Source: a virus. From it: DNA of 22,951 nt. Below, piece after piece: positions 13,728-20,945 of this stretch; the first letter of the stretch is position 1, and every line of letters starts with the position of its first letter. Position numbers and translations under genes: made by a program. Location of the stretch: IMG/VR virus record IMGVR_UViG_3300000116_000251, positions 1 to 22,951 of that record, one strand, 5' to 3'. Under the pieces are notes generated by a model that did not search any database, had not been told where the DNA came from, and saw only the letters and a program-made list of their open reading frames with translations.

Positions 13728-13922
13728 TTAAATACTCCACAGGTTCATTTTGTACCCGTTGTGAACAATTATGAAAAAACACGTCACAATGTGCAAGACA
13801 ACCCACACTGTTCTGATTATGGCAACTCTATCGGCCCGAAGGTCATCTTGGAACGCCTTCTGACCGATAGACTTGCACCAGTAATGCCACGCCTTACGCA
13901 ACATAGCGCCGATTGTACTCAT
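13728..13922 (-). CDS. small single-helix membrane protein
   Basis: A 64-residue protein with a basic N-terminal half (about 1-35) and one transmembrane segment (about residues 36-55, rich in Ile, Val, Phe) that ends with Asn-Gly-Tyr-Lys. AGGG sits about 8 bases upstream of the ATG at 13922. It overlaps the end of the HTH gene by 29 bases. I do not recognise a family. The topology suggests a cytoplasmic N-terminus anchored in the inner membrane, perhaps a host-interaction or superinfection protein. Confidence 0.5.
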   Translation of the reverse strand: MSTIGAMLRKAWHYWCKSIGQKAFQDDLRADRVAIIRTVWVVLHIVTCFFIIVHNGYKMNLWSI

Positions 13923-14148
13923 CGACTAGACCCTGCACCAATTCGTCATACTTCATCACATAGGATGCATAGGTGCGACCTTGCCCGTCCGACTTGATCA
14001 GGGTCTCAATTGGATACCCGTCGTTCTTCAACTCGTGAATGCGACTGGCCAGGCGGTAACACCCGAACAAACCGATGGCCTTCAGGGGAGACAAACTCTT
14101 CCTGCTCATGAGGTGTTTGAGGATTTTCTGGTTCTGGCTCATTTTCAT
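13894..14148 (-). CDS. helix-turn-helix protein, HTH_39-like
   Basis: An 84-residue protein. Residues 7-50 form a winged-helix-like HTH: KILKHLMSRKSLSPLKAI, then LFGCYRLASRIHELKNDGYPI, a pattern I recognise from the HTH_39 domain of many phage proteins. The C-terminal part is helical. AAAGGA stands 8-9 bases before the ATG at 14148, which overlaps the preceding gene by 4 bases. As the second gene from the leftward promoter it is a natural candidate for a DNA-binding regulator of this operon, or for a protein binding the repeats at 16.5 kb; neither is shown. Confidence 0.75.
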   Translation of the reverse strand: MKMSQNQKILKHLMSRKSLSPLKAIGLFGCYRLASRIHELKNDGYPIETLIKSDGQGRTYASYVMKYDELVQGLVDEYNRRYVA

Positions 14149-14336
14149 ATCTTGTTTCCTTTCAGATCATTGATGAAATCAACGTAGTCCTCGTGGACAC
14201 TGTAGAACTCTAGCACTCTTTTCATGGCTTTTAGAAGCTTCTTGTCCTCCACGTAGCCACTCCTGATAAACTTCTTGAGAGAAGTGCAGACAATGTCGTC
14301 CAAGCTCTCCTCTGCTATGTCTAGTTCGATGTTCAT
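14145..14336 (-). CDS. small acidic phage protein, first gene of the leftward operon
   Basis: A 63-residue protein starting MNIELDI, acidic in the first 15 residues and helical throughout, with a DDIVCTSLKKFI segment and a C-terminal YVDFINDLK. I recall similar small acidic proteins (the SLK-type pattern after an acidic start) in many phages, with no known function. The leader reads AGGGAAAATC before the ATG. It is about 75 bases downstream of the expected start site of the consensus promoter and so should be among the most strongly expressed early products. Confidence 0.68.
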   Translation of the reverse strand: MNIELDIAEESLDDIVCTSLKKFIRSGYVEDKKLLKAMKRVLEFYSVHEDYVDFINDLKGNKI

Positions 14337-14351
14337 GATTTTCCCTAAGTG

Positions 14352-14363
14352 AACAATATTGTT
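14352..14363. promoter_or_regulatory. second operator-like palindrome in the early leader
   Basis: A second exact copy of AACAATATTGTT lies 51 bases downstream of the first in the direction of transcription, between the promoter and the first gene. Two identical perfect palindromes within 62 bases suggest a paired operator. Confidence 0.45.
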
Positions 14364-14402: not shown

Positions 14403-14414
14403 AACAATATTGTT
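14403..14414. promoter_or_regulatory. operator-like palindrome at the leftward promoter start site
   Basis: AACAATATTGTT is a perfect 12-base palindrome one base downstream of the -10 box, over the predicted start site. A protein bound here would block the leftward promoter. The core ACAATATTGT is shared with the palindrome at 14352-14363 and that at 16449-16466. Confidence 0.5.
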
Positions 14415-14415
14415 G

Positions 14416-14443
14416 ATTATACAGGACATAGAATTCCTGTCAA
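14416..14443 (-). promoter_or_regulatory. consensus sigma70 promoter for the leftward early operon
   Basis: On the minus strand a perfect TTGACA (14443-14438) and a perfect TATAAT (14421-14416) are separated by 16 bases. Transcription should start near 14408-14410 and run into the 63-residue gene and the whole replication operon. The -35 box begins one base after the stop codon of the upstream 77-residue gene. Confidence 0.85.
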
Positions 14444-15056: not shown

Positions 15057-15146
15057 TTAGTCATCCTTCCACAATATTGTTAACAGTTGGTCGAGCGCCA
15101 AGTATACAATGATGACAATGAAGATGCAAATGGTAATTGTAATCAT
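15057..15146 (-). CDS. possible 29-residue membrane peptide
   Basis: Starts at the ATG at 15146, about 12 bases after TAGGGA. Residues 2-18 are almost entirely Ile, Val, Thr, Phe and Leu, followed by Asp-Gln and a short amphipathic end. The frame reaches to the start of the next gene, as do the other genes in the cluster. It is short enough to be chance, so this is a tentative call. Confidence 0.38.
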   Translation of the reverse strand: MITITICIFIVIIVYLALDQLLTILWKDD

Positions 15147-16026: not shown

Positions 16027-16448
16027 TGTCTCTACTCCTTGTGTGTTGCTTGTACTTAGTAGACGAACCATAACCCATATTGTTCCGCGCCGTCACAATA
16101 AAAAGTACCATCTTAAAACAAATCACATTGTCGCCACAATTGATTGCGTGTTCGTGGTTTGTTCCCATGCCCTGGAGGTACCGCCAGTGCGCGCTGGGTG
16201 CTTTCCATATGGTAGCACCTAGCAAACGAGCCAGAGGCTACCAGTGACGCTTATATGGCGTATATGACACCTATGCTTGCCAGGTATACCAGTCATGCTA
16301 CGAATGCATAGCGTGATATATCAGTACCATACGGTAGCGTATAGGTCAGCATTGTTGTCCTATTCGCACCCTCTCGCTCTCTCTAGAATATTTCTAATCT
16401 GTCCAACATTGAACACAATTGTATAACACCACGGCCAGTGTACAACTA

Positions 16449-16466
16449 TGTGACAATATTGTCACA
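16449..16466. promoter_or_regulatory. 18-base perfect palindrome, likely protein-binding site
   Basis: TGTGACAATATTGTCACA reads the same on both strands over all 18 bases. Its core ACAATATTGT is the core of the two palindromes at the leftward promoter, and the unit at 16573-16590 differs from it at only three positions. It looks like the ideal form of the site of which the array units are weaker variants. Confidence 0.6.
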
Positions 16467-16470
16467 GTAG

Positions 16471-16488
16471 TGTTACATTATTACAACC
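16471..16488 (-). repeat. degenerate repeat unit in inverted orientation
   Basis: Read on the minus strand this gives GGTTGTAATAATGTAACA, which agrees with most positions of the first array unit (GTGCAATAATGTCACA). It lies between the perfect palindrome and the array, in the opposite orientation. Confidence 0.4.
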
Positions 16489-16513
16489 GATCGGATGTTC
16501 ACGCTTTGTTCAC

Positions 16514-16646
16514 CTGGTGCAATAATGTCACACTGTTGCAACAATGTTGTCACTGTTGCCCAGGTGTCACACTGGTGCAATATTGTCACACATTGGAATG
16601 ATTCTAGTCTGTTGCAGGATTGTCACACTGTTGCAAAAATGTCGCA
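16514..16646 (+). repeat. iteron-like array of 19-base direct repeats
   Basis: Units start at 16514, 16533, 16553, 16572, 16609 and 16628, with an 18-base degenerate stretch at 16591-16608 where a unit would be expected. Consensus is about CTGKTGCAANAATGTCACA. The spacing is 19 bases (once 20, once 18 in the degenerate slot). Each unit is itself an imperfect inverted repeat (TGTTGCA...TGTCACA), so it could bind a dimer. Units are immediately tandem with no spacers, so it is not CRISPR. Confidence 0.75.
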
Positions 16647-16725
16647 ACCCCCCCGTGCGTCGCGTATTATTATATGTCCTCTGCGTTCATTTTTTGGAGG
16701 GGTAAATAATTGTTCAACACTACTG

Positions 16726-16754
16726 TTGACACCATTGTTACTTTATTGTATACT
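16726..16754 (+). promoter_or_regulatory. sigma70 promoter for the rightward packaging and head operon
   Basis: TTGACA (16726-16731), a 17-base spacer and TATACT (16749-16754) make a near-consensus promoter. Transcription should start near 16761, giving a leader of about 40 bases before the terminase small subunit. The sequence over the -35 box and spacer, read on the minus strand (GTAACAATGGTGTCAAC), partly resembles the leftward operator. Confidence 0.8.
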
Positions 16755-16803: not shown

Positions 16804-17265
16804 TTGCCACGTTACGCTGACTATGCCAATCCAAAGCCGATTAACAAGTCTCTTACTGAAAAGGAAGAGGCTTTTCTCATTGCCTTGGTTGATTCAAAGA
16901 TGGAACCTCTGGAAGCGTTCTACGCAGCGGGCTACAAAGAGCCAAAGGAGAGCATGGCCAAGCACCGCTCTAAACGGCTCCAGAAGCACCTCTGGCTTCA
17001 CATAGAGAACCGGATCAAAGAGCGGGTAAGCGAGACAGCCACACTGGCTCTAAACGTTCTGGAAGACCTTATGCGGACGGCTGACAGTGAGAATGTCCGC
17101 CTCAACGCTGCCAGAGATATTTTGTCTCGCGCAGGTTACGACGCGATCCAGCGGCAGGAAACGGTATTTAAAGAAGTTCACGAGATGTCTGACAAGGAAC
17201 TCGACGAACAGATTAAAGAACTACTGGACACAGAGAACGTAATTCCGTTCAAAGACAAGAGTTAA
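16804..17265 (+). CDS. terS: terminase small subunit
   Basis: The start must be the TTG at 16804: an in-frame TAA stands at 16798-16800, AGAGGA is correctly spaced upstream, and the next ATG is only codon 33. The 153-residue protein has an N-terminal HTH-like region (about residues 17-60, EKEEAFLIAL...EAFYAAGY), a helical oligomerisation part (70-115) and an acidic C-terminal tail that probably contacts the large subunit. TerS proteins recognise phage DNA and bring it to the motor. It is the first gene behind the rightward promoter and is directly followed by the large subunit. Confidence 0.82.
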   Translation: MPRYADYANPKPINKSLTEKEEAFLIALVDSKMEPLEAFYAAGYKEPKESMAKHRSKRLQKHLWLHIENRIKERVSETATLALNVLEDLMRTADSENVRLNAARDILSRAGYDAIQRQETVFKEVHEMSDKELDEQIKELLDTENVIPFKDKS

Positions 17266-18927: not shown

Positions 18928-20945
18928 TGGCTGTAACTCTAGATGACAGTGAAATCATTGCCCTTGTTGACACAGAGATCAATGGGAGTTCTACCTATTA
19001 TGACTCTGAGATCAGTTCTCAGCGTGAAAAATCTATGGAGTACTTCTATGGTGAGCCATTTGGTAACGAGGAAGATGGTCGATCTCAGGTAGTTGTCACC
19101 GACGTTCAGGACACGCTGATGTGGATGATGCCGTCCCTGATGCGTATCTTCACCGCTGGAGACAATATTGTAGAGTTTGTACCAGAAAGTCCAGATGATG
19201 TAGCAGTAGCTGAACAAGCTACCAACTATGTAAACCATGTGTTCTACAAGCAGAACGACGGGTTCATGGTGCTGTACAATATGTTCCTTGACGGCCTAAT
19301 GCAGAAGGTAGGCGTTGTTAAGCACTATTGGGAAGAGATTGAAGACACTACCACAGAGGATTACGAGAACCTTACACAGGGCGAGTACGACTCTCTCCTA
19401 GCTGATGACGAGCTAGAGCTTCAAGAGCACACAGAGACGACTGTAGAGCGCGCTGCCATTGACCCTATGACCGGAGAGCAGGTAGTTGTCGAGGACATTT
19501 TCCACGACGCTGTGTTTACGCGAACATTGTTTAACGGTAAAGTAACAATCGAAAACGTTCCGCCTGAAGAGTTCCTAATTAACTCTGGTGCAAAGTCTAT
19601 TGAAGATGCTCGTTTTATCTGTCACCGCTCTCACAAAACCCGTAACGATCTTATTCGTATGGGCTATGACGAGGAGACGGTATACGATCTTCCAGCGTAC
19701 TCCACAGGCGCTGATGATATTACAACGAGCCAAGAGTACATGGCACGTCACTCATATGACGCTACCAACGTATACCCTAACCAAGCTGCTGAAGACTCAG
19801 AGGTTATGGTACAGATTTATGAGTCATATACTCGACTGGACATGGACGACGAAGGTGTTAGCGTCCTTCACAAGATTATACACGCTGGCAATGTTATTCT
19901 CGACTGTGAACCAATTGACTACATTCCGTTCAGTTCTGTCTGCCCAATTCCGATTCCCCATAAGTTCTTTGGTCTGTCGGTGGCAGAGACCGTAGAGGAT
20001 ATTCAACTTATCCGCTCTACACTGACCCGTAACCTGCTAGACAATATGTATCTGGCAAACAACGGTCGGTTCCAGGTTGTAGAGGGACAGGTCAACATTG
20101 ATGACCTATTGACCAATCGTCCAGGCGGAATTGTCCGTACCCGTAGTCCTAACGCGCTACAGCCTATTGTAACACCTGCCCTACAGCCAGCTGCTTTTCA
20201 GATGTTGGAATACTGGGAAGGTATCAAATCTGGACGCACAGGTGTTAACCCCCAGACGCAGGGGCTATCAGCAGACGTACTTAAAAGCCATGTGACGCAG
20301 GGTGCCGTGCAGGGTGCTCTTACAAACGCACAGGGTCGCCTAGAACTGATTGCGCGAGTGTTTGCAGAGACCGGCGTTCGCAACATGTTTAAGTCGATCT
20401 ACAACCTTATTCAGCGTTACGAAGATCGTAAAAAGATAGTGCGTATTAACAACACCTATCAGGAAATTGACCCCGCAAGTTGGCGCGAAGACCTCGACGT
20501 AGATATTAAAGTCGGTATCGGATATGGGGACCAGAACAACCGTCTTACCAACCTTGGTACTTTCTCAGCATTGATTGAAAAGGTTGCTACTCAGACAGAG
20601 GGCATTGTTTCTCCCGACAACATCTATAACCTTATCCGACAGATTGGTAAGGAGATGGGCATCAACAACATCGATGCTCTGGTAACTTCTCCACCGCCTC
20701 CACGCAATGAACCAAATATGCAAGAGCAAGCAATACAAGCTCAAAGCCAAGCTCTCATCATGGAAGCTCAGGCTTCTCAGATGCAAGCAGAAGTTAAGGC
20801 CAAGGAACTTGAACTCAAGGCGGCTAAACTTGAACTGGATCGTGTTGAGACAGAATATAACATAGCTATCAAGCAAGAAGAGTTGAAACTTAAAGGTATT
20901 GAGCTAGGCTTTGAAATGGCTTCTGGCGAAAATGTAAAGGCATAG
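18927..20945 (+). CDS. portal protein
   Basis: A 672-residue protein following the terminase. It starts with a helical N-terminal region, has a central mixed domain, and a region around GIKSGRTGVNPQTQGLSAD (about 430-450) of the type seen in podoviral portals, followed by helices around the expected channel region. The C-terminal 80 residues (about 585-665) are a Gln/Glu/Lys/Ala-rich coiled coil, the likely barrel above the ring as in P22-type portals. It forms the dodecameric ring at one vertex through which DNA enters and leaves. Sequence type and position agree; no catalytic motifs are expected. Confidence 0.88.
   Translation: MAVTLDDSEIIALVDTEINGSSTYYDSEISSQREKSMEYFYGEPFGNEEDGRSQVVVTDVQDTLMWMMPSLMRIFTAGDNIVEFVPESPDDVAVAEQATNYVNHVFYKQNDGFMVLYNMFLDGLMQKVGVVKHYWEEIEDTTTEDYENLTQGEYDSLLADDELELQEHTETTVERAAIDPMTGEQVVVEDIFHDAVFTRTLFNGKVTIENVPPEEFLINSGAKSIEDARFICHRSHKTRNDLIRMGYDEETVYDLPAYSTGADDITTSQEYMARHSYDATNVYPNQAAEDSEVMVQIYESYTRLDMDDEGVSVLHKIIHAGNVILDCEPIDYIPFSSVCPIPIPHKFFGLSVAETVEDIQLIRSTLTRNLLDNMYLANNGRFQVVEGQVNIDDLLTNRPGGIVRTRSPNALQPIVTPALQPAAFQMLEYWEGIKSGRTGVNPQTQGLSADVLKSHVTQGAVQGALTNAQGRLELIARVFAETGVRNMFKSIYNLIQRYEDRKKIVRINNTYQEIDPASWREDLDVDIKVGIGYGDQNNRLTNLGTFSALIEKVATQTEGIVSPDNIYNLIRQIGKEMGINNIDALVTSPPPPRNEPNMQEQAIQAQSQALIMEAQASQMQAEVKAKELELKAAKLELDRVETEYNIAIKQEELKLKGIELGFEMASGENVKA

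Follow-up and report, generated by a model that had tools for sequence, protein, structure and literature searches.

Layout of the early/late control region

The window analyzed here is a linear IMG/VR fragment of 22,951 nucleotides. A leftward early operon occupies approximately 5.5–16.0 kb, and the late genes on both flanks are read rightward. The early operon contains genes for RNR, an exonuclease, SSB, PolA, ThyX, and a primase-helicase together with small genes, their identities being assigned partly by inspection. No near relative of the window was found in the phage collection. Its TerL showed at most 56% identity to those of isolates (Vibrio phages and the SAR11 phage Baldr) and 76–96% identity to those of many IMG/VR contigs, and two more TerL scans gave mostly the same contigs. 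The relatives of the polymerase are SAR11/Roseobacter phages, and TerL is closest to Vibrio phages.

An array of operator-like repeats sits between the leftward early operon and terS. It belongs to a module common to more than 60 relatives, which consists of a CN tract, an AT-rich stretch, the array, a C-run, a TGCGTTCATTTTTGGGG-like element, and a TTGACA-17-TATAAT promoter leading into terS. The features of the window that are discussed below are as follows.

13894–14148, minus strand: winged-helix HTH_39 gene (PF14090, E = 1e-14), second gene after the operators
14145–14336, minus strand: gene for a 63-aa protein, first gene after the operators
14352–14363, no strand: putative operator O2, AACAATATTGTT, 51 bp downstream of O1
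14403–14414, no strand: putative operator O1, AACAATATTGTT, placed where transcription is expected to start
14416–14443, minus strand: leftward promoter TTGACA-16-TATAAT, 12 of 12 matches to the sigma70 consensus
16150–16164, plus strand: LexA-type box 1, GTTCGTGGTTTGTTC, alphaproteobacterial motif, approximately 125 bp upstream of the first leftward gene
16365–16383, plus strand: CN tract CGCACCCTCTCGCTCTCTC (C at every second base), then AT-rich TAGAATATTTC; found in 73 of 95 control regions
16438–16646, no strand: operator-like array with the unit TGTTGCAANATTGTCACA, detected by PWM scan, lag-11 autocorrelation, and motif scan
16438, 16449, 16460, 16471; 16515, 16526, 16537; 16554, 16565; 16610, 16621: array matches in the PWM scan, in 11-bp steps
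16449–16466, no strand: perfect 18-bp palindrome TGTGACAATATTGTCACA, an array unit with two TGTNACA heptads 11 bp apart (7+4+7)
16497–16511, plus strand: LexA-type box 2, GTTCACGCTTTGTTC, alphaproteobacterial motif, inside the array
16648–16654, plus strand: C7 run closing the array
16682–16702, plus strand: conserved TGCGTTCATTTTTTGGAGGGG element
16726–16754, plus strand: rightward promoter of the terS/late operon, TTGACA-17-TATACT, which most relatives have about equally far from the C-run
16804–17265, plus strand: gene resembling that of a small terminase subunit, with a weak match to Terminase_2 (E = 0.016); the first to the right of the control region

The CN tract is 15–23 nt long with free bases between the Cs, and its two-nucleotide period could suit the loading of a hexameric helicase. 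Other examples are seen in L021, L033, and L069 and at positions 5–25 of the Baldr record (L081).

Palindromes at the control region and at the leftward promoter

The perfect symmetry that the sequence-only reading had described at 16449–16466 was confirmed at exactly this position, as were the two 12-bp palindromes at 14352–14363 and 14403–14414, both of which are AACAATATTGTT. These three are the only palindromes of at least 12 bp outside the coding genes of the window. The 18-bp palindrome was expected 0.1 times per Markov-shuffled window and was present in 9% of the shuffles; by itself it is mildly unusual and constitutes weak evidence. Its core, ACAATATTGT, occurs in five exact copies in the window, compared with 0.03 expected. 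Two of the five lie in coding sequence, at 15071–15080 in a 29-codon ORF and at 19162–19171 in the portal gene. The former was rejected as an operator, since it forms the codons ACA ATA TTG of this conserved ORF (15057–15146, minus strand), which encodes a conserved, unannotated 29-aa membrane-type peptide, MITITICIFIVIIVYLALDQLLTILWKDD.

The core at 16449 was ACAATATTGT only in the window and L172, and the other close relatives carried ACAACATTGT, GCAACATTGT, or ACATTATTGT. Among the close relatives, the right half of this unit, ATTGTCACA, was near-invariant and the left half variable; the window palindrome corresponds to an array copy with TGTGACAA in both halves. The exact 18-mer TGTGACAATATTGTCACA was found in no other IMG/VR contig, and a similar perfect palindrome, GTGACAAATTTGTCAC, was present in L037. 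Judged from these sequences, the palindrome is a local symmetric variant and the most symmetric unit of the array. A role in RNA, as a hairpin or terminator, is very improbable: a 41-nt segment does fold at −14 kcal/mol (z = −2.7), but the hairpin is not conserved in relatives and lacks a T run, no Rfam match was obtained, and no transcript is expected across it.

The palindromes near 14.4 kb show a different pattern of conservation. The promoter and the start-site palindrome, slightly altered in some cases, were kept in all 11 close HTH_39 relatives; in the same 11, a second palindrome followed approximately 47–63 bp on, with drifting sequence in between. HTH_39 is the first gene downstream of the operator in L088, L090, L091, and L093. 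In L018 and L023, whose HTH_39 is 58% identical, the layout was kept with a different start-site palindrome, CAATTGTGATCACAATTG. (Approximately 350 bp upstream of the HTH_39 gene, these two contigs also contain a hairpin like that of an intrinsic terminator, GTGTGGCAAAATTGTCACAC with a T run behind it, that resembles the array motif.) Because autoregulated repressor operons usually have this promoter/operator layout, we infer that HTH_39 binds these sites and regulates its own expression. The palindromes at 14.35–14.41 kb are thus likely to be the autoregulatory operator of the HTH_39 operon, separate from the array. An HTH_39 repressor at the start-site operator would block RNA polymerase, and the second operator would strengthen the block. 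The HTH_39 proteins of Zobellviridae (Cobavirinae) and of Sulfitobacter phages share the Pfam domain and have a similar early-gene neighborhood; however, in contrast to the window, no palindromic promoter operator was seen upstream of HTH_39 in the three isolate phages checked.

The sequence-only reading had proposed that one regulator acts at both places. Both places are indeed operator-like, the pair at 14.4 kb is strongly conserved, and the array lies in a conserved early/late control region, but the single regulator was not supported: AACAATATTGTT is kept at the HTH_39 promoter, whereas neither the core nor the symmetry at 16449 is conserved. In this model, HTH_39 would bind the leftward promoter and the array and switch transcription from early to late. 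The 10-bp core common to both places speaks for it, as does, weakly, the enrichment of CAATATTG in the arrays of the HTH_39 clade (9 of 67 array sites, compared with 3 of 123 elsewhere, the sites not being phylogenetically independent). On the other hand, the array motif is also present in contigs, some of them fragments, in which no HTH_39 was found. Three of these (L036, L038, and L041) have CACTATAGTG operators at the corresponding promoter, with several copies at the early-promoter start site (L041:3195–3260; L036, approximately 1790). Conversely, L018 and L023 possess HTH_39 together with a different array type, and their HTH_39 operators differ from their own arrays. Since the start-site operator and the array vary independently, one regulator at both places is unlikely, and HTH_39 is disfavored as the array binder. 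Comparison of these loci indicates that two systems are most likely present, an HTH_39 autoregulatory circuit and a control-region array.

The helically phased array and its exchange as a cassette

The existence of the array was confirmed. Its units had been wrongly taken for weakened copies of the palindrome, the consensus unit across relatives being the asymmetric TGTTGCAANATTGTCACA. Autocorrelation over the control regions of 40 relatives gave z = 33 at lag 11 and z = 14 at lag 22, and a coding control was flat. The motif was located 17–205 bp to the left of the C-run, just upstream of terS, in approximately 33 related loci, and the remaining exact matches among 2.9 million viral contigs were mostly scattered in appearance. 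In 85,000 cellular genomes there were 76 scattered single matches, a chance level, and no tandem pair; a common host operator was therefore rejected as its identity. The unit also has a resemblance to MatP, CRP, and Rex sites, which were discounted on account of their different spacing. Roseobacter phage CRP-6, an isolate that is otherwise unrelated, carries approximately eight tandem GTTGCAANAATGTCAC copies in its own divergent early/late intergenic region (L193:44500–44730), and the primase alone was matched there among the window proteins tested.

Whole repeat cassettes have been replaced between L042 and L052 and between L061 and L069, with near-identical flanks. The specificity of the array thus seems to be exchanged as a unit. 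TerS differs by three residues between L042 and L052 and is identical save for a 2-aa gap between L061 and L069, and it was rejected as the specificity partner of the array. Likewise, G003 and L176 show 91–99% identity in most replication genes (93% in the primase-helicase) and have different arrays. No early phage gene tracking the cassette type was found among 12 genomes or fragments. From all these comparisons, the partner of the array is probably not HTH_39, TerS, or an obvious replication protein. Such operator-cassette exchange between near-identical phages suggests fast co-evolution with a DNA-binding factor. The site of the P2 Ogr-type late activators is TGT-N12-ACA; activation of this type was rejected, as no Ogr_Delta match was obtained among ten early/terminase proteins in a Pfam scan.

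These exchanges also bear on a packaging function, in which a TerS ring would engage the phased sites of a pac or cos site just upstream of terS. The position adjoining terS/terL fits this explanation, and phased repeats could fit DNA wrapped around a TerS ring. In addition, contig ends are mildly overrepresented near the CN tract, with 5 of 41 lying within 40 bp of it, and in the Baldr record the tract is preceded by only 4 bp. However, the specificity of the array does not follow TerS, given the full exchanges described above, and CRP-6 shares the motif, yet no match to the terS or terL of the window was found in it. A packaging site is accordingly improbable. The contig ends concerned lie to the left of the CN tract in L004, L006, L015, L027, and L070, and they possibly mark a physical genome end.

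A somewhat better, though still unlikely, alternative is an iteron-type origin, in which a phage or host initiator on the 11-bp-phased repeats would melt the AT-rich stretch beside the CN tract, a T7-type primase-helicase would be loaded on the C-phased strand, and the LexA-type boxes would tie replication to the host state. Phased direct repeats are present, and the unit resembles the iteron sequence TGTGACAAATT. The CN tract with its AT-rich stretch is widespread, the GC skew changes sign near the control region, and an array of this kind is kept in the divergent region of CRP-6. Moreover, T7-style initiation would lack an evident T7-type RNA polymerase, as the largest leftward early ORF encodes 560 aa. 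Against this, no recognizable Rep or initiator was found in a Pfam scan of ten early/terminase proteins, the primase-helicase is nearly the same in G003 and L176 despite their different array types, and the skew change also follows from the coding-strand switch. Iteron plasmids such as mini-F likewise combine phased repeats with a separate inverted-repeat operator for an autoregulated winged-helix protein, RepE (PMC13028717); unlike in mini-F, the operator and the array vary independently among the phages compared here, and no Rep protein was found among the ten proteins scanned.

LexA-type boxes and candidate control by host factors

The window contains exactly two copies of GTTC-N7-GTTC, at 16150 and 16497. 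The two lie in the control region and are conserved in the close clade; the box at 16497 was present in 8 of the 9 close-clade sequences checked and absent in L159. In 74 unique control regions, 143 copies were counted, compared with 0.64 in shuffles, and some regions had up to seven. Their density was 4.9 per kb in the control regions and 0.075 per kb elsewhere on the contigs concerned, an approximately 65-fold difference. The enrichment of GTTC direct repeats was essentially confined to the spacer of 7, other spacers being low. This sequence is the published LexA-binding motif of alphaproteobacteria, and the phage boxes agree with the alphaproteobacterial LexA (SOS) box in exact motif, spacing, and direct-repeat geometry (PMC3323433, PMC8565304). 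On the basis of this motif identity, the boxes are candidate host LexA sites. A difference is their setting between early and late genes, in phages that yielded neither an S24 repressor nor an integrase (12 records).

A perfect TGTTTCACGTGAAACA, the canonical chromosomal parS, is present in the control regions of L063 (57–72) and L067 (1261–1276), 101 bp to the left of the C-run, and L065 and L066 have a two-mismatch version. The CtrA motif TTAA-N7-TTAA was not enriched (1 observed, 0.8 expected, in 45 dissimilar regions), nor were PhoB boxes in the control regions.

Taken together, these observations point to the palindrome as one dimer-type operator in a helically phased, host-factor-bound array between the early and terminase/late operons, with the HTH_39 operator at 14.4 kb being separate; we give this reading a probability of about 0.5. 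In this reading, the intergenic control region that separates the leftward early operon from the rightward terminase/late operon of a virulent podovirus-like phage is filled by the array. Host LexA and one further dimeric factor for TGTTGCAANATTGTCACA would bind cooperatively on one helix face, and the bound LexA and array factor would tune early and late promoter activity to the host state. Several observations count against this mechanism: neither the cellular genomes nor the comparison of early phage genes yielded a factor for TGTTGCAANATTGTCACA; the hexamers of the terS promoter are near-consensus, so that no obvious activator is needed; the distances between array and promoters exceed those of classical repressors; and some features of the control region resemble those of an origin.

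The common assumption is that the SOS state of the host is of no consequence to virulent phages. A broader proposal, which we regard as tentative and rather doubtful, is that virulent marine phages of a large group carry, between their early and late genes, an exchangeable landing pad for host regulators (LexA boxes, in some cases parS, and a further dimeric factor) that pauses or releases infection according to the host state. The nearest functional precedents are phi29, a virulent phage controlled through Spo0A boxes and trapping by Spo0J (ParB), and the CtrA-dependent "lytic deferment" of alphaproteobacterial phages (PMC9437464). Like the window phage, these are virulent phages with clustered host-regulator sites at promoters, and the use of Spo0J by phi29 is paralleled by parS in L063 and L067. 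In contrast to them, the regions described here have LexA-type boxes, no enrichment of CtrA sites, and a large exchangeable array. GIL01 and other LexA-using phages likewise have LexA boxes at phage promoters but are temperate (PMC4551915, PMC6182141), whereas no integrase or CI/LexA homologue was found in the 12 records. If the proposal is true, phages of an abundant, mostly uncultured marine group read host DNA damage, in a manner like that of phi29 and CtrA deferment but via SOS and with specificities exchanged as cassettes. The region packed with LexA-type boxes would then also allow hosts to be assigned by a test on sequence and would offer a system ready for bench work. As a further observation, Fur-box-like GCAAATGAGAATCATTCTCAA or related repeats adjoin the C-run in the control regions of L036, L182, L038, and L041.
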